Of a stretch of DNA of 64,000 nt, positions 1-64,000 are shown one piece after another; positions within the stretch are counted from its first letter, which is position 1, and every line of letters starts with the position of its first letter. The notes under the pieces were generated by a model. The model was not told the origin of the DNA. It saw only the letters and a program-made list of their open reading frames with translations, and ran no database searches. This stretch comes from Crambe crambe (Eukaryota > Porifera > Demospongiae > Poecilosclerida > Crambeidae): the NCBI GenBank assembly GCA_963924555.1, contig OZ004596.1, positions 5,528,139-5,592,138 on the forward strand. Reading direction: 5' to 3'. Made by a program: the position numbers and the translations under genes.

Positions 1-3000
1 GGGATTATCAGGAAGATGAGGATCAGCATGCCAGCTATAAAAAGGAACAGGTGCTTCCCCTGCAAGAACTCAATGTTTGCATCATAGAGCCACACATAAC
101 GTACTGCACCACTTGGGTACTGCACAGTGGTGAAGGAGAAGATGGTTACCACTGTTTGCTGTAATTTCGTGTAAGAAAGCAACAATAAAGTAGCCAAGAC
201 CTTGACAGCATTCTGTCCACCCAATTTCTGCATAAAATTGGGGAATTTATTGTACAGCACAATGATAATGAAAATGACAGCCCATAAGTAGAAAGGAGTA
301 ATGAACTCCAGCCACATCTCACTGTAAGCATCCATCCCATCAAAAAGGCACGTATCAATCCCAAAGTCTAGGTTTAGCCAAGCTATGACTGCAAAGAAGT
401 GACTTGGTGCTCCGGGTAAGAAAATGGAGCGATTCATACTCACTATGTTGACGTAAAATATCAAGCCATTGATGGTGCCCTCAGTGACCGTTAAATTCAA
501 AGCAAATAATAAAACCACCAATACCAGCCAAGTGACTGCAAAAGGAAAGAAGAGCAGTAAGTAGATGTTAGAACACTTGGCACACTTATGATAGCTTAGC
601 ATCAGACTATAACCTGCCTTGCAGCGTCCACAGAGCAGTCCAGTCCGATAGAGTTTGCACTGATTATCCACAGTACTTAGATTGCTCACATTTATGTACA
701 CTTCATGAGGGAGGCAGTAACCATAAGGACAGTAGTCATGGATTATGACACCCGTTTCATTTGTGTTTTCAGAGGATTCGTTGATAACTCCTATCCAGGA
801 GTGAGCAGGTGAGAGAATACTTTGATTGCTGATGTAGCAATGGATGTCTTTCTTTCTTATCACAGGGTCACAGGTACACAATCCCTCTGATAATGCGAAC
901 CCAAGAGGACAAGGCTTCAAGTGCACTGTGATGTTGGGGATAAAAGCAGTGATGTATGGCATGAAAGTAAACCGCTCAGCTGTGATATAAAAATTCACAA
1001 TTTCCCTATCAGAGAAAACTGAGTACTTGAATGTATTGCAGAAGGCATTGTTATTCGTCTGCGAGTTCTGCAGTGGCCCAAAACTAGTATTGCCTGCAGA
1101 ATGATCAAAGAATGCATGAATGGCTCCAGGCACTGCGCCAAACAGGGTGGCCCCAACGACTGCTATGTTCAAGGTGAAGTCCTCGCCTGGGTGGACATAC
1201 ACAGAAAAGATGTGTTCTTCTACATCATAGTCATCTTGAGTGCAATTAGGTAGACGACTACCATTGTAACACAAACAGGCTTTGTAAGGATCAGAAGATG
1301 CAGCCGAAGGGTCCTCTTCTGTATTCACTACCTTAAAAATCTCACTAAAGTGCTCTTCTCCACTGATTTTACCGATAAATGCTTTACAGCCTTTAATATG
1401 CCCACCATAAAAGGAAGAACCAGCATACTTGGCACTGTTGTTCACAAAATTAACCTTGATGGTGCTGAATGGGTCATTGGAAGGTCCATATGAATCAACT
1501 TGATAGAAACATGGCACGATAGTAGGAATGGGTTGACTGGAATCGATGAACATACCTCCTCCTACCCATTTTGCATGGTTGTTGATGAACAGGATGTTAG
1601 TGTCTTGTCTAAGATACAGATAAGAATCCTTCATCAATGCCATTCCTCCTCCATAGAATGCAGAGTTGTTCCTGAAGGTGTGGTTCCCTTGGAATATTAA
1701 ATTGGTCTTAATGGAGATGATACCAGCTGCATTGTTACTGTCAAACGTACAGTCAATAAACGTCACATTTATAACAACTTCAAAGTATAGAGTAGCTGCT
1801 TGAAATTGAATGTTGTGTGCCACTCCAGTGTTCCTTACAAAGGAGACATTTTGAAAAGTGGGTTGTATAGTTCTGGAGGCTTTGTAGATCCATTTATGAG
1901 CACGAGCACCATAGTGAACAGCTGAACCAACCAAGAATTGCTGGAGGTTGTAGTTACTACGAAACACAGTATCCTTAACCAGTACATACTGGGTGACACA
2001 ATCTTGATCCGAGTATTGTCGGTCCTCAATAAACAATGCACCTGTTCCATTGTTTTCTACAAACGAAACCCCTGTCAGCATCATAAGGAAATTGGGAAGT
2101 GGAACATCTTTGCCACAGGAAAAAGGATCATTCTGGATCAGGTCTTCATCTAGAACTATAAATAAACCAACACCACGACTTCCTTTGCCATTACTAAACA
2201 CGACATTACTGATCCTTACGGAGTTATTCGTCAACATGACGAAGTGGAAGTATAATCCACTGCCAAAATATCCCTGATTCTTATCGAATATAGAATTCAT
2301 GATAGTTATGTGTACATTGCAGCAAAGTACCTGGACAGTGAGACCGCCAGTGCCTATCATTACCCCAGAGCTGTGATTTTCGTACCCATTCAAGAATTGA
2401 GTCCCATCGATAGTAAGGTTACTATACTCACTGCAGCTGGAATAGAAAAAGAGTGCATTACCACCAAAGTAATCTTGAGTGGCATGATTATCTGAGAAGG
2501 TGGAGTTGACTATGGAGGAAGAGCCACCTACAGTAAAAGCTGCTAGTCCATAGCCAGAGCTGTTAGAGATTCGAGTATTTAAGATACTTAAATCAGAACC
2601 ATTCATCAGAACTATTGCACCAGCGAACTCAACTTGCAGATTGAACCCACAGTTGAGGACAGTCAAGTTCTTCAAATTGAACTTGGAAAATTTCTGGATT
2701 TGGAATCCAGAGGATGAAGAATCACAAAGTATCGGGTTTAATTCTGGACTTGAGCTAGCTCCCAAAAATGAGAGGTTGACCACGTCCTTGATCTCCACTT
2801 TAGATGATAAGAGGTGTTCTCCTTCTAGAAAGTAGAAAACACTGTTGTTTGTGAAGTTTGAGTGGTTGGCATAATACTGCAAGGTATGACACATGACACT
2901 GCCAGGAGGACATAAAGAACTCGATTCAAAACTGGAATCAGCTTTCACAAAATACTCTGTAAGTTTATTGACAGAGTGACAGAAACTCAGCAGAGTACTT

Positions 3001-3044
3001 GTCTGCAATAATATTAAAGCTATCATTAGTTCTGATCTTCCCAT
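1..3044 (-). CDS. Beta-helix plus multi-TM membrane protein, 5' part (partial)
   Basis: An open frame runs from an ATG at 3044 to the left edge without a stop, giving at least 1014 residues in one exon. The N-terminus begins MGRSELMIALILLQTSTLLS, a good signal peptide. About 650 residues follow that are rich in Asn, Ser and Thr, with repeated short beta-strand-like units such as SNSSGYGLAAF, suggesting a right-handed parallel beta-helix (pectin-lyase-like) ectodomain. A Cys-rich stretch (about 560-900 in DNA coordinates) precedes hydrophobic segments near 470-560, 200-290 and 1-60, so the C-terminal part is a multi-pass membrane region containing the phrase LDFGIDTCLFDGMDAYSEMW. I recall large families with this architecture and phrase in sponge and other basal animal genomes; that is memory, not a search. 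Function is unknown; a cell-surface receptor or adhesion role is inference. The C-terminus lies outside the window. Confidence 0.75.
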   Translation of the reverse strand, partial: MGRSELMIALILLQTSTLLSFCHSVNKLTEYFVKADSSFESSSLCPPGSVMCHTLQYYANHSNFTNNSVFYFLEGEHLLSSKVEIKDVVNLSFLGASSSPELNPILCDSSSSGFQIQKFSKFNLKNLTVLNCGFNLQVEFAGAIVLMNGSDLSILNTRISNSSGYGLAAFTVGGSSSIVNSTFSDNHATQDYFGGNALFFYSSCSEYSNLTIDGTQFLNGYENHSSGVMIGTGGLTVQVLCCNVHITIMNSIFDKNQGYFGSGLYFHFVMLTNNSVRISNVVFSNGKGSRGVGLFIVLDEDLIQNDPFSCGKDVPLPNFLMMLTGVSFVENNGTGALFIEDRQYSDQDCVTQYVLVKDTVFRSNYNLQQFLVGSAVHYGARAHKWIYKASRTIQPTFQNVSFVRNTGVAHNIQFQAATLYFEVVINVTFIDCTFDSNNAAGIISIKTNLIFQGNHTFRNNSAFYGGGMALMKDSYLYLRQDTNILFINNHAKWVGGGMFIDSSQPIPTIVPCFYQVDSYGPSNDPFSTIKVNFVNNSAKYAGSSFYGGHIKGCKAFIGKISGEEHFSEIFKVVNTEEDPSAASSDPYKACLCYNGSRLPNCTQDDYDVEEHIFSVYVHPGEDFTLNIAVVGATLFGAVPGAIHAFFDHSAGNTSFGPLQNSQTNNNAFCNTFKYSVFSDREIVNFYITAERFTFMPYITAFIPNITVHLKPCPLGFALSEGLCTCDPVIRKKDIHCYISNQSILSPAHSWIGVINESSENTNETGVIIHDYCPYGYCLPHEVYINVSNLSTVDNQCKLYRTGLLCGRCKAGYSLMLSYHKCAKCSNIYLLLFFPFAVTWLVLVVLLFALNLTVTEGTINGLIFYVNIVSMNRSIFLPGAPSHFFAVIAWLNLDFGIDTCLFDGMDAYSEMWLEFITPFYLWAVIFIIIVLYNKFPNFMQKLGGQNAVKVLATLLLLSYTKLQQTVVTIFSFTTVQYPSGAVRYVWLYDANIEFLQGKHLFLFIAGMLILIFLII

Positions 3045-3413
3045 TTTCACTGTCTGACACAGTTTAGCTAGCTATATTAGTCATTTCATGTAGTACTGAT
3101 CCTACTGAAATAAAGTTTCATAGTTGCATGCAAGCCATTGCTTTTCGTGTACACATATCAACACACACAAACAAACAGCAACATACAAATGCCAGATGCT
3201 AAACAGCTATAGCTTTCTATCAAAACACAAGCTTCTAGCTAACCATGCACATTCTCTCATTAGCTATTTAGCTATGCCTGCATGCTTGCTTGTATCAGTT
3301 TGATACAAAAGATTCAATTAGCTATAGAACAATAAATCATTGAGTTCTGTATGCAGCCATTGTAGCAATAGATAAGTTGTGTTCAGGTTAATGTTATACA
3401 TGTTGGGCATCTG

Positions 3414-3610
3414 TAAGGTAAAGTGGGGCTATATTCCGAATGGTGGGGCTATTCCGTAGGGTCAAATATTTTCAAAACTCCTCGAACTTATGAGCTCTAT
3501 TTTCTACTACTATTATAGTAGATTATATCCTCCAACATTGAGCTCAGAAGCCTGAGTAGTTTCAACAATACGGAATTACCCGCCGTTCGAAATAGCCCCA
3601 CTTTGCCTTA
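3414..3610. mobile_element. MITE-like element with inverted terminal repeats
   Basis: The 19 bp at 3414-3432 (TAAGGTAAAGTGGGGCTAT) is the reverse complement, with one mismatch, of 3592-3610. Internal ATTCCG/CGGAAT pieces are also inverted. Its length is about 197 bp with no ORF. TA dinucleotides at both ends fit a TA target site. It is probably a non-autonomous DNA transposon. Confidence 0.6.
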
Positions 3611-4392
3611 TAGCTAGTCATTACCATAAACCCTTTCTCAGACCAGAAGTGATCCAATCCTAATAACCCTTGACACAGATGGCCTGCTCAGTTCCCTCTT
3701 CTTCCAGTGATCTGCATGTACTTGGAAACAACCAGTTGATGGTAAATCTGCAGATAACACATTTTTTTAGTTACTGTACTCTCTAGGGTCAATGGAATTG
3801 ATGCAGGACTATAAAAATAATTATAGGAGTGCTTGACACTTGCAACGCCTTGTATGCTGGCTTAATTCCCTACTCCTGCAGATGAGAAATGCTGAGACTG
3901 GAGAATGAGATCAGTTGTTTGACTGATGTCAGCTGCCATCTGTGTTTAGTGACCTGTGCCTATGTACAATAACCACAGTGATGTTTTCTTAGTTATCTGT
4001 TGTCTGTATCAGTATCAGAATGACATAGATATACATATACAGTTACCTACTGTACTGCTCACTGATCACTTCAATGCTTAGAATGTAGGTAGTTATGAGT
4101 AGTTATATTAGGTAGCTACATGCAAAGCTGCAGAAGTCAATGTGCTTCATCTCAGAACAACTTCACTTGCAGGTTTCTTGCTCCAGGATTCAATTTTTAG
4201 TATCAGAATTATGTACATCCAGGAGTTTTCTTTCTTTTGTAGTCAGAACAACACTTCAGGGACTAGGCAGGTTTCAAATCTTGCTTATGTGATTATGTGA
4301 ACTAGTACGAGAATTGACAGCTTTCATAGTAATAGCCGCCGCATTTTCGAATTTCCCGCGCTCGGTGCTGGGGCCGGCCCCATCGCCTTGCT

Positions 4393-4592: not shown

Positions 4593-7500
4593 CTATTTCA
4601 GCTGATTAATCACTGCAGCTCGTCCACTTACAGTTAGTATTGGCACTGGTGCTACTTTCTGTGCTGCTTTGGTATTCAAATAGCTGATTAGTTTCTTTGA
4701 GAGCTCAGAACTTTCAGAGATTGGAAATGATTTCTGCATAATTGTATACAATTAGCTATAGTAATGATCATGTTACATAATAAATATTATACCTGAAACC
4801 AGTGATGTTGCATTAGCTGACTGGATGAGTAGCGCTGAACAGGTGAGACAACCAACAAGTGTCGAATAAGGTCCATGGCATCATCAGTCACATTTTCCCA
4901 ATAGCAACTCGGAAAGGAGAATTTGCCAGTCATACTATTGGCAGAAGTATTGTTTTTCTTGCTCCGCCCAAAAGGCATCGTGCCAGAGAGCAATATGTAT
5001 GCTATCACTCCTACTGACCAAACATCTGCTTTAGTGCCATACCTATAGTAATGAATAAGATATTGAACAGGATGTTGTTGGTATAAGCTGTGAATATGAC
5101 TATGATCATCACCCTTTTCCTGATGTCATTTCTGGTGCTCTGTAGAACTCATTTCCACAGACGAGAGTTAATGGTTCTGTCACAATGGCGGCCAGACTCA
5201 AGTCAGCTAGCTTCACTATCCACGAACCATCTGTATCCAATGTGAGCTGCATGTACATTCAAATATGAATGGTGGGTACTTAATCTGTGGCTTCTACTTC
5301 ACGTACAAATATGTTTTCTGGTTTGATCCCTCTATGGACGATCCTGTTTGCATGCAGGTACACCAAAGCCAACCCCAGCTGTCTCATGGTCTCCATGGCA
5401 TCAACTTCACTCAAGTGTTGGCAATGCAAAATGGCATCAAAGAGATCTCCCCCCTGTATTTAGGGTATAAGAATGAAAAAGATCAACCTTGCAGCTTATT
5501 TGTGGGGATATAGCTAATTTACCTCTATTGGCTCCATGACCATACACATTTCATCACTGTTTTCCCAGTAGTCAAGGACTGTCAGTACATTTTCATGCCT
5601 CATCATCCTCATGATGTTGATCTCCTGCAGGATCTTGTCGTCACAGCCAAATACTTTGGCCTTCTGGATCACCCTTAGTAACAAGTCTCTGTTCTCCTGC
5701 TTGCAGCTGCAGTGCTTGACGGCTGCATAGGCCCCCTCCATAATGATCATCCCCACATGATACTTCTCCTTGGTCTGTTTGTACAGCTGCACTTCAGCTG
5801 CTAAGGCATCCAAATCCTTTAGTGTGACCTCTGTCTGACTGGTTCCATTCCCCAAGTTATGGTGATTTGATCTGATGAGAACATCAATAATGCCATGAAA
5901 ACAACCAGTATCTGAATAGCCTTAGGCTGTCATTTGAAACACAACTAGTTATGAGCCGATATCTCGTCTATTTCTCAATAAGTAATAAGTATTTATTTCA
6001 ACTTACCGTGTTTTCTCTCTGCAATTGTACACCTATAATTAGTTAAAAGACAATGGATAGGTGTGATCACCATAGCAACATGTCTAGACATACCTCCTCA
6101 GGTTCTACAGCTCCAGAAAGTTGATCATCAATAACTGCATGTAGTAGTAATTATTATCACTATAGCCATAGCTAACTATAGCCATAGCAACTATAGCCAT
6201 AGCAACTATAGCCATAGCAACTATAGCCATAGCAACTATAGCCCATTCAGTACTTACAGTCAGTTTGGATGGCTATATTCCTAGTCAAAATATCATTACT
6301 TGAGGTCGAATCAGAGAATGTGCTGGAACCACTTGGATATGTAATCTGTGGGATAGGAGACACTTTGGAGAGCTGGTGCCTTATAGATAATGACTTACCC
6401 CTCTGGGTAGAACCATGTCCACTACAGATGTAGGTGCCACTTCAAGTGAGATTTCACTCCGAGGGGTCTGGGGGTGAAGGAGGGGTCCAGGGTGAAAGCC
6501 TCCTGCATGGAGCAGAAAATTACCAATGGGACATTCATCATTCAAGGTAGATAAAAAATGAATATACTCTTATATTGCTCCAATAACTAAAGAAAGCAAG
6601 AAAGAAAAAAAAGACAATTTAGCTATCAATCTTACTTCTGTATTTGAAAAGGGGTGATTCTACTGCTGTGGAACTGCAATCGGATGCAGGTCTGTCGTGA
6701 GATTCGAATAGCCTCCTCGGTCTTGCATCAATCCTTCTCAGTGATGCCAGATCAGAGGAGAGAGTTGGTGGGAATTTGAGATTAGGTGCTATTGTTGATG
6801 ATCCTTGTAGTGAGGGAGGTCTGTACACAGTGGGATCATCGTTTCCCGAAGAATCTGATGTAATTGGAGCTTCAGTATCTGTGCCATGCTTGTCAACAAT
6901 CTCATAATCAGCATGATTTGATTCTGCTGAAGTATTTTGTTCTTTAGTAGTATCTTCAAGATCTTTGTCTCCACTCAGATCCTTGTCTTTGGGTTCGATG
7001 GTAACTATGCTGGGGTCACTGTTACTCTCAATTATTGTAGTCTTGGATTTAGTGATATCTGAATTGTCCAGTTCCAGTCCTGAATGGGAATTGGACTTCT
7101 CTTCCTCCTGGAACCAGGATTGGGATTGTGAGTCATCCTCAGCTGGCTCTGGATTTTTTTCTTTGATCTTATCTTCACATGATTTTTCTTCAATTTCATC
7201 TTCACATGATGCAAGATTCTCTCTTTCCCTTTCTGGAATTTGTGGAAGATTCTCAGCATTTGGATTCGGTTGCGGGCTCTCTATTTTGGAATTATCAAGT
7301 GCATCCTTCTGGACTACTGCCTCATCTTGTGCAGTTAGCTCCTTTTCACCAAGTTCTATAACAAGTATAATTTTGCTATAGCAGATTGTAAACAACAAAA
7401 TTGAGTGCTCATGAATATCATAATGAGTTTTATGTCTATGCGCAGACTGTGAATAGGTGCAAGTAACACACGGAGTGTGTGAAATGGAGCATATAGAGTC

Positions 7501-9031
7501 TGTGGAATGCAGCTTGGAATGCCAGCACTTCAAATTGGCTTGTTTGGTAAGCAATTAAAGCACAGGCTGGAATGCACAACAGCACGATAGTACTTGGCAT
7601 TACTAAATATAGTTAAAAAAAGGCAACAGATTGTATACAAGATTGGTCTATTATTAATATCACATCCTGTTTTATTTGTGGGATGGATGGACCAGTGAAT
7701 GTTGATTTAGGTGTTGTTGTTTTTAAGCAAACAGAACTTGAATTATTGGGATGTAAATTCCGATCTTGTTTGTTGAGATGGCATGCATGTATGGATCGTG
7801 GGTCAGGTGACTTTGGGGGCCTAGGGGATCGGAAGGAGGGGATAAGTTCTTGTAATAAAGGATGGGGGAATTACACAGTAAGATGTACGACCTAAATCCA
7901 CCAATCTCAGTCAACTATGCACTATTATGTATGGTTCTCACCTTCGACTCCCGTCAAGAAATCAGTAATATCAAACTTCTCATTCCCAACTGCAACAAGG
8001 GTGCTTCCAGACTTCCAAAGCTGAGACAAGCTCTTCACTTCTTCTCCATCTAGGTTGAAAAGACGGAGACATCCATTGATTGTCTTCAAATTCTCACTGA
8101 TAAGCTGTTTGGCTTCTTCCCATGAGGTCAGAGTTTGCTTGTTGATGTAGACAATGGCACGTTCCCTTGGGGGAGGACAATTCCTGTAGATTGTGAATGC
8201 CAATGGCTTTGAAGGCTTAAGTATTGGAGGAGGTGATTCTATAGATTGATCTATGAGCCGTGGTGACTTCAGAGTGCTCTCATTTGGTTCACTGATGGAG
8301 CTGAGACGTAGTGGTCTCTGTCTTTGCAAAGGTCTTTGTCTCTGCAGTGACCTCCTTGTCTGATTGTCTGTGCTTTCTCCCAGCTTCATGCTTGCATTCA
8401 GACTCCCCACACTTTTCAGATGCCAGTTCTTTATGCTCGTATTCAGACTCCCCACACTCCTTGAACTCGCACCCAGACTCCTATCTAGCTCAGTGGGAGA
8501 TAAGGGAAAGTTCTTGGAAAATACAGATTGAATTCCATCACCGAAACCTTGCACCTTGCTTGGTGTTTTCCAGTCAGGATTCTTCACTTTTGTGTAGTCC
8601 ATCTTCTTGAAAAAACCTGATGAGCCACAGACATAGGTCTTTTGATGCTCCAATTGTGATAGGCTCTTCACGTGATGACCTCCTTCAGGTGTGTACACAT
8701 TCCTTACCCCAGCTGGTAAGTCAATTCTCCTGGACAGCTCGGCCAGGAGGGAGTCCCAAGTTCGCATGCTTCTCTGCGAGATGTTCATCTTCACTCCTTC
8801 AAAGAATCTGTCTCCATTCTTGACAAATTTTACAATTATTGGCTCATAGGCCAGTAAAGACGTCCTCCTTTGCAGAGTGGGAAACTTGGAGACCCTTCTG
8901 CATGGCTGTGTTCTTTCTTTGAACCTTAGGACTTTTTGAGGGGAAGAGGGCTGATCGTTCTGGTGTCCATGATCTTCTTTCAGCGGAGGTAAACTTTCCA
9001 CGCTTCTATCCCAGTTTTTTAGCCTCTTCAT
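4593..9031 (-). CDS. DCLK: Doublecortin-like kinase homologue with degenerate kinase domain
   Basis: Eleven exons, phase-consistent throughout: 7942-9031, 6636-7355, 6399-6502, 6258-6345, 6094-6134, 6007-6032, 5523-5871, 5307-5453, 5113-5246, 4793-5042, 4593-4733; 1029 aa. Tandem DCX (microtubule-binding) domains lie at about residues 63-150 and 268-362. A long acidic, Ser/Glu-rich linker (about 364-690) follows, then a CaMK-type kinase fold at about 725-985 and a short tail. This is the DCLK layout. Catalytic motifs are broken: the VAIK lysine is Arg (LLLRVIQKAK), HRD is HRG (VHRGIKPEN), DFG is DLS (KLADLSLA) and the glycine loop is degenerate. APE and the DVWSVGVIAY helix remain. It is therefore probably a microtubule-associated pseudokinase. 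It shares an upstream region with OGFOD2. The exon 8 donor at 5307/5306 was chosen because it restores the family spacing between HRD and DFG. Confidence 0.88.
6174..6243. repeat. 15-bp minisatellite in DCLK intron
   Basis: Unit AGCCATAGCAACTAT, about 4-5 head-to-tail copies, in the intron between exons 4 and 5 of the DCLK-like gene. Confidence 0.8.
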
Positions 9032-9048: not shown

Positions 9049-9287
9049 CGCGCGAATTTGTGGTATGGATCGAGGAAAGGGGAGGGGAGGGGCTCGCGAC
9101 TTGCGAGAGAATGATTTCCTCTTTTGAAAATAGCTATGAACACTTTAGGTACACTAAAAATCCTGCAACACACTCTTTTCCCAACAGTCTTTCTACACTT
9201 AGCTAGATTATAAATCATAAGTGCTTGTCTACCTCCCACGCAAAGTGCGCACTATTTAGAGTCATAAGCCCAGACGTCATTATTAAA
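9032..9287. promoter_or_regulatory. Divergent promoter region, DCLK / OGFOD2
   Basis: Only 256 bp separate the two start codons on opposite strands. It contains CGCGCGAATT near the DCLK start. No clear TATA box at a fixed distance is seen. Confidence 0.55.
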
Positions 9288-62127: not shown

Positions 62128-64000
62128 ATGGAAGAAACTGACATCCACCAGCGACTGCTGAAACTTAGAGACGTCTCTTTAGGACTGCAAAAGACTATTG
62201 GAGTGAATTCAGACTTGGCCTCAGCGAGTTATGACTGTACAGTGGACTCCTTACTTGCACTCTACAATGAATGCAAAGGTGCAAGCAGTTTGGCCAAGGA
62301 CCAGAATGTGTTGAGATTCATGAAAAAATGTAAGCATAAGATGATTGAAAATTGTGAAGCTGCAATGTGAAGCTGCAATGCACAGAGTTCACTTAATTTT
62401 ATTTACGGACAGATAAAGACACTGTTTTAGCTTTGGAGAAGCTACGTGTGCGTGCAGACAACTTTGAAATGAAGAGCACCATAGGTAGAGGCCATTTTGG
62501 AGAGGTGAGGATACCCACAGTAGCACTAGAGAAAGCTGAATAGAATTTTGGGTTAGTTAATTTTATAATGTGATTTGAGTTTCTGAAGAACTTACACAGT
62601 GTTATTACAACTATAGTATCATACTGAATGACTTAGTGTGCCCTTTTGTACAAGCATATGAAATTGCATTGTTTGTGAGGTAAAGCATAATTGAAATATG
62701 ATACCCTTTGCCAAAAGAAAAACACATGCCTAGTCTGCCATGTGGTAACAGTCATTAATTTATTAACAGCTATCTAGCCAGCAATTTAGCTGTCAATGGC
62801 AGTGAATGCTCTGGGTTACCACATGGGGTGTTACTGATTGGTTGGGGTGTGGGCTCTGGGAAGAGGGGGATACCTTTTTTTTATCATCAATCAAAGATTG
62901 TTGACTTGTGGGCGTATCTGTCTCGCTGCAGGTAGTGGTATGCCATGAGAAGAGCACTGGAGATGTATTTGCCATGAAAATCATGAAGAAGTCTCATATT
63001 CTGCAGCAACCTGATGTAAGTGGTTAATGTGTGTCTCACCAGATTGAGCTGAAATATAGCATAACCACATTAGGAACATGTGACCTCATCTGGGAAAGTA
63101 AACTTGCTTTATGGGTTTATGGGTTCATTTGTGCATTTGGTATACTTTACACACAGTGTATCTGTTTTCCAGGCTGCCTTTTTCAGTGCTGAGCGTGATA
63201 TCATGGCATGGGGTAAAAGTCCATGGCTGACATCCCTGCACTATGCCTTCCAAGATTCCACCTCCCTCTACCTGGTAATGGACTATCATCCGGGGGGAGA
63301 CCTCCTTAACATCATGGAACGTAAAGACGGAAGCATGCATGAAGACGAAGTCAGGTATGCAAGAAAACAGAATATGCCTTGTATAATACAATGCCTTGAG
63401 ACAAAAAAATCCATACAGTAGAAGATTCTATTAGGATTGATGTATACTGTATTGTAGATTTTACTTGTCTGAGATAGCAGCTGGACTCCATGACTTACAC
63501 TCCCTTGGCTTTGTCCATCGAGATGTCAAGCCCGAGAATGTGCTTATTGCCCGATCAGGTCACATCAAGCTGGTTGACTTTGGCTCTGCAGCTCGTCTCG
63601 GCCATAATGGGAAAGTGGTCAGTCATAATTATGAGATGACCACATTCCACTCACTGGAAAAATTCATTCATAGATTGAATCTAAATTGCCTGTTGGTACT
63701 CCTGAATACATTGCCCCTGAAGTCCTGACTAGTCTGGACAAGACTGCTGATTATGGGGTGTGCTGTGATTGGTGGTCGCTGGGCATCATTGCTTACGAGC
63801 TGCTGTACGAGGTCACGCCCTTTGAGGGAGACACCACCAGCAAAACATACAACAATATCATGAACTTCAAGGTCAGGGAAATGGAAGTTTATTGTTTTCA
63901 TACCCACGGCTCAGAATGGCCATGTTACAGGAAAATGGAAGTTTATTGTTTTTATACCTGGCTCACAATAGCCATATCACAGGAGAATAATCTACTGTCA
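62128..64000 (+). CDS. CIT: Citron Rho-interacting kinase, N-terminal part (partial)
   Basis: Six exons in phase before the window ends: 62128-62329, 62413-62504, 62932-63015, 63173-63354, 63458-63617, 63674-63871. An N-terminal leader of about 95 aa is followed by an AGC/DMPK-type kinase with all key residues: GRGHFGEV loop, AMKIMKKSH (VAIK Lys), [22 protein letters not shown] and [40 protein letters not shown] and [10 protein letters not shown] are closer to citron than to ROCK or MRCK. The coiled-coil, C1, PH and CNH parts would lie to the right. Expected role: midbody organisation and cytokinesis. Confidence 0.92.
63880..63985. repeat. About 53-bp tandem duplication in CIT intron
   Basis: Two diverged copies of ATGGAAGTTTATTGTTTT followed by TACC...GGCTCA and ending in ACAGGA. 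Each copy ends in an AG that could act as a 3' splice site. Confidence 0.7.

Follow-up and report, generated by a model that had tools for sequence, protein, structure and literature searches.

The window analyzed here, a stretch of 64,000 nucleotides from the sponge Crambe crambe, contains a doublecortin-like kinase (DCLK) homologue in which the catalytic aspartate, the ATP-anchoring lysine and the glycine of the DFG motif are all replaced. Based on its sequence and on analogy with DCLKs studied in the laboratory, we think it likely that this homologue, probably an orthologue, has turned into a pseudokinase that binds microtubules constitutively and whose kinase fold is structural. Our best reading is that the gene is probably maintained and that its product would act as a microtubule scaffold without autophosphorylation. 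A natural catalysis-free DCLK would, if true, be a case in which evolution has uncoupled microtubule binding from kinase activity, and would bear on the question of how far DCLK function needs catalysis.

Gene model and family identity

The gene runs along the minus strand (9031..4593) in 11 exons. We assembled the model by script from the raw sequence. Ten GT-AG introns with consistent phases join the exons into a single open frame (3087 coding bases and a stop codon), giving a protein of 1029 amino acids, in agreement with an earlier, sequence-only reading that had described an intact frame over 11 exons. The predicted protein starts with two DCX domains, which a long linker connects to a kinase fold; a short tail follows. 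Exon 1 (7942..9031) encodes the N-terminus, the first DCX domain (DC1, amino acids ~65-155), a linker and the second DCX domain (DC2, amino acids ~275-360), as placed by DCX matches in Pfam and to doublecortin and DCLK chains in the PDB. The linker that follows is encoded by exon 2 (6636..7355), identified by its frame, splice sites and in-frame codon signal, and by four exons placed by the gene model: exon 3 (6399..6502), exon 4 (6258..6345), exon 5 (6094..6134, 41 nt) and exon 6 (6007..6032, 26 nt). A 15-base tandem repeat of 5.6 copies (6159-6243) lies in the intron that separates exons 4 and 5.

The kinase and tail are encoded by 4593-5871, the span marked by the sequence-only reading, from the start of exon 7 through the stop codon in exon 11. 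The model and its alignment with DCLK1 place the N-lobe in exon 7 (5523..5871), with the glycine loop MEGAYA, the sequence LLLRVI (A417L and K419R, in DCLK1 numbering) and the retained C-helix glutamate, and the catalytic loop HRGIKPENIF (D511G and L518F) in exon 8 (5307..5453). By the model and PDB alignment, exon 9 (5113..5246) has the DLS motif and the activation loop CGNEFYRAPE, exon 10 (4793..5042) has the C-lobe with DVWSVGV and QRYSSS, and exon 11 (4593..4733) has the C-terminal tail (ELSKKLISYLNT) and the stop codon. The structural motifs KPEN, APE and DVWS are retained in exons 8-10, as had been stated from the sequence alone. The DCLK1 alignment has gaps of one residue beside the exon 10/11 join and of two residues within exon 10.

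By sequence, the gene is a DCLK homologue and probably a DCLK orthologue. In DCLKs, the DCX domains are N-terminal to the kinase, and there are two of them in DCLK1/2 and in most invertebrate DCLKs. The kinase region gave a full-length match to Pfam Pkinase (amino acids 727-982, 193.3 bits), indicating that the kinase fold is not a chance resemblance. When it was searched against the PDB, the top six sequences were all DCLK1 (210-213 bits) and the first sequence that was not DCLK1 scored 166.7 bits, 44-47 bits behind, among the best 60 of 2286. Identity to DCLK1 over the kinase domain was 107/260 (41%), the highest among the genome kinases that were aligned (37% and 33% in the two that followed). 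The DCX domains had been described as normal. This holds for DC1 (41/88 identical to DCLK1), but DC2 is divergent (27/78), and the Pfam DCX scores of 72.8 and 36 bits in a genome profile search likewise indicate a strong DC1 and a weaker DC2. The DCLK hallmarks in the glycine loop are D398, N400 and A402 (PMC10602587). One of the three is exact in the window kinase (A402, an alanine also found in 7/22 control kinases of the genome), and D398 and N400 are replaced by Glu and Ala. The tail beyond the Pfam match is 47 residues; DCLK3 tails are reported to be ~50 residues or shorter (PMC10602587).

Several other features are in the window. A short element (3411-3613) has 22-nt inverted ends that are 91% complementary and 159 nt apart, and 3410-3615 is 83-89% identical to at least 39 other places (40/392 candidates scored), as in a MITE-like repeat family. 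A 1014-codon open frame on the minus strand (3-3044) runs off the left edge of the window and has, by eye, a signal-like start and hydrophobic stretches near its end. On the plus strand, kinase exons at 62941-63829 have HRDVKPEN and DFG and an AGC-type look, presumably resembling citron kinase/ROCK.

Active-site residues and selective constraint

Three catalytic motifs and the glycine loop of the kinase differ from those of DCLK1. As located by the model and alignment on the minus strand, Arg756 (AGG, 5673..5675) replaces the VAIK lysine (K419), Gly848 (GGG, 5328..5330) replaces the HRD aspartate (D511), and DLS (GAC TTG AGT, 5196..5204) replaces DFG. The sequence-only reading had called all three motifs changed and the glycine loop degraded, and the alignment with DCLK1 confirmed K419R, D511G, F534L, G535S and G397M. 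Two of these calls had to be narrowed. In DLS, the Phe and Gly are changed but the Asp (D533) is kept, and in the glycine loop the first Gly is replaced by Met734 (ATG, 5739..5741, G397 in DCLK1) but the second Gly is retained and the third position is Ala, as in DCLKs. Based on K419R, D511G and G535S, the protein would be a DCLK by descent and, by sequence, no active DCLK. A pseudokinase is a kinase fold that lacks at least one of the VAIK Lys, HRD Asp and DFG Asp; here the first two are missing, the third is present and the fold is retained.

The alignment identified A417L and L518F as additional changes, and T550N in the activation loop. A417L puts a Leu two residues before the lysine position, where the controls described below have Ala (21/22) or Val (1/22). 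PKA L173 caps the adenine ring from the C-lobe (PMC12721161), and by our own alignment L518 is equivalent to it. A417L and, on this equivalence, L518F place bulkier residues at adenine-pocket positions. The kinase retains K513, N516, the C-helix glutamate E436, APE and the F-helix Asp.

The changes were concentrated at the active site. We aligned the window kinase and DCLK1 with 22 near-full-length, single-frame kinase domains from the same genome (112 matches gave 26 domains, from which four duplicates were removed; three pairs at 85-96% identity remain). Because of this filter and the use of best-scoring matches, the controls lean toward canonical kinases. Conservation in at least 90% of the controls and DCLK1 defines 22 positions, of which the window kinase keeps 16 and has lost six (G397M, A417L, K419R, D511G, F534L and G535S), all in the ATP or catalytic site; at a cut-off of 80%, 17 are kept and seven lost, the seventh being L518F. 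With 11 of the 22 positions classed post hoc as ATP or catalytic (397, 399, 404, 417, 419, 436, 511, 516, 533, 534 and 535), the losses were 6/11 at active-site positions versus 0/11 at the others. The one-sided probability of that split, calculated by hand for these post hoc classes, is 462/74613 = 0.006; it is 0.023 with H509 and R510 moved into the active-site class and 0.012 for an earlier position set, again with classes drawn post hoc. In a leave-one-out comparison, no control had lost more than four conserved positions, and some had an active-site loss (E436 in two controls, F534 in two, A417 in one and G397 in one). The Lys, HRD Asp, DFG Asp and DFG Gly are present in 22/22 controls (lost in 0/22 by leave-one-out), in contrast to the window kinase, which lacks three of the four (DFG Asp is kept).

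The open frame and codon usage suggest that the gene is probably maintained. There is no stop or frameshift in the five kinase exons, and their splice sites are intact. We simulated drift by mutating the coding sequence randomly, ignoring indels, until 5/21 conserved sites had changed. Over 300 runs, the coding sequence acquired a mean of 12.4 stops and was stop-free in a single run. The codon signal was strongest in the true frame in 6/6 gene parts tested. Taken together, the open frame, the in-frame codon signal and the confinement of losses to the active site make maintenance, judged from the sequence, a likelier state than decay.

Some of the same measurements fit a different explanation, in which selection acts on the DCX part only and the kinase exons, carried along with it, are beginning to decay. 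We consider this unlikely, although it is the best of the alternatives. The kinase is more diverged from DCLK1 (107/260, 41%) than two genome kinases are from their PDB counterparts (191/284 or 67% for CDK7, and 152/211 or 72% for MAPK7). In addition, its synonymous codon preference (0.030) was the lowest of the six parts (0.068-0.079 in the others), and the kinase part by itself, with a mean of 3.1 stops in the drift simulation, stayed stop-free in 20/300 runs. The rapid divergence and the low codon preference are the reasons that relaxed constraint keeps some weight, and the earlier claim of a maintained pseudokinase stands with that reservation. Against relaxed constraint, the synonymous preference of the kinase still exceeds the null (z 3.3), all five exons are undamaged, and the losses fall on the active site rather than on other conserved positions in the post hoc split.

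A residual or unconventional kinase, or a nucleotide binder, is improbable. The retention of D533, K513, N516 and E436 is consistent with such an activity, but the catalytic Asp, the ATP-anchoring Lys and the DFG Gly are all gone together, the first Gly of the glycine loop is lost, A417L and L518F are in the adenine pocket, and the activation loop has T550N. Least probable is an artefact, whether from errors in base calling, from an exon modelled wrongly or from alternative exons with intact motifs: the exon model was built from DNA alone, but Arg756, Gly848 and DLS are in three different exons and the GGG codon of Gly848 is, as had been claimed, at least two base changes away from GAT or GAC, so a single sequencing slip is no explanation; moreover, the exon 7-10 joins are gapless in the DCLK1 alignment, and the modelled exons were the only tblastn matches of DCLK1 with E<1 within the gene span, with no exons seen there that restore K, D or DFG.

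Other doublecortin genes and proposed function

The window gene was the only DCLK detected in the genome. A genome-wide DCX profile search gave four matches in two genes, the window gene and one at C15:310128-310855. The second gene has two DCX domains and a long open frame downstream. No kinase motif was seen by eye in frames of at least 35 amino acids on its strand (291000-313000), and there was no kinase match within C15 291000-319900 among the matches listed. The DCLK1 kinase query gave at least 151 matches in the whole genome (145/531 candidates scored), none of them a DCLK1-like kinase at 50% identity and the best at 48%, among the matches listed. The second DCLK that the sequence-only reading had proposed to look for was thus found by neither search, although a copy could have been missed or be unassembled. 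Single frames of other kinases outscored single window exons against DCLK1 (126.4 bits for C6:3430704, against at most 63.2 bits for a window exon) because introns break up the window gene. Some genome kinases that matched DCLK1 or the window kinase were considered as candidates and rejected; their motifs look like those of other kinase families, which we take to be TSSK, MAPKAPK5, SNRK, CHK2 and CaMK1. No relatives of the DCX exon were confirmed in viral_contigs or genome_contigs.

The replaced residues suggest how binding could have become constitutive. K419R, D511G, F534L and G535S remove the lysine that anchors ATP, the catalytic aspartate and the Phe and Gly of DFG and leave the structural positions of the fold in place, and the protein should be unable to phosphorylate itself. 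Hyperphosphorylation of DCLK1 in its DC domains abolishes microtubule binding; at 3 nM the D511N mutant bound at 9072 units versus 2749 for the wild type, and at 25 nM slightly more than the wild type (19667 versus 16120) (PMC8352597). Tubulin was polymerized by DCLK1 D511N and not by phosphorylated wild type (PMC8452690). We infer that, with no autophosphorylation, the window protein would remain in the state that binds microtubules, which autophosphorylation weakens in DCLK1, and that its kinase fold may serve as a scaffold or lid. The DC domains gave no signal of a special loss of autophosphorylation sites (Ser/Thr kept at 4/8 sites versus 8/13 other Ser/Thr), and we rejected a co-evolutionary loss of these sites.

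The two bulky pocket residues may keep the lobes together without ATP. In other kinases, an engineered Phe at the A417 equivalent blocks ATP and keeps the closed fold; in KSR1, the A-to-F change blocked ATP and A-to-V did not (PMC12721161). Since Val was ineffective, a block of the pocket by Leu417 and Phe518 is a hypothesis. The worm ZYG-8 D604N mutant is 98% embryonic-lethal, and its spindles are less disrupted than those after ZYG-8 depletion, from which the authors infer kinase-independent roles (PMC11398696). Given this lethality, loss of catalysis should be costly unless roles have shifted. We hold only tentatively, as a doubtful extension of the pseudokinase reading, that a DCLK activity essential in worms was lost across the lineage and that the sole DCLK is now an ATP-independent microtubule scaffold with its pocket filled by A417L and L518F.

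Comparison with known systems

The window protein has the architecture of active DCLKs. As in C. elegans ZYG-8 and vertebrate DCLK1/2, the DCX part is followed by a CAMK-type kinase, and the similarity extends into the tail. It differs from them in lacking the catalytic residues, in a longer DC1-DC2 linker and in a tail without VSVI, which is reported for vertebrate DCLK1/2 only (PMC10602587).

Pseudokinases are known in the CAMK group. TRIB1-3, PSKH2, titin kinase and obscurin PK1 have a kinase fold that is predicted or reported to be non-catalytic, and scaffold roles are described for all of these but PSKH2. To our knowledge, none of them has DCX domains. The motif losses of TRIB and PSKH2 differ from those of the window kinase (PMC7586955), and PSKH2 is a precedent for a CAMK-group kinase without the catalytic Asp (PMC9988210). 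EphA10 is a precedent for the same substitution, a natural HRG in place of HRD, but it is of the ephrin-receptor type and has lost the DFG Asp as well (PMC7586955). We found no natural DCLK pseudokinase in literature titles and the openings of abstracts, a scope that leaves out most subscription papers and supplements. Twelve kinases of the Schistosoma kinome are predicted to be inactive (PMC3117856), and Schistosoma DCAMKL could be among them.

A close comparison is with the laboratory mutant DCLK1 D511N, which shares with the window protein the lost catalytic residue, the architecture and an expected absence of autophosphorylation. The window protein differs from it in being natural, in having Gly rather than Asn at this position, and in the additional changes at K419, F534, G535, G397, A417 and L518. 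Laboratory versions of DCLK1 and ZYG-8 have been made kinase-dead by mutating the very residue that is changed in the sponge gene.
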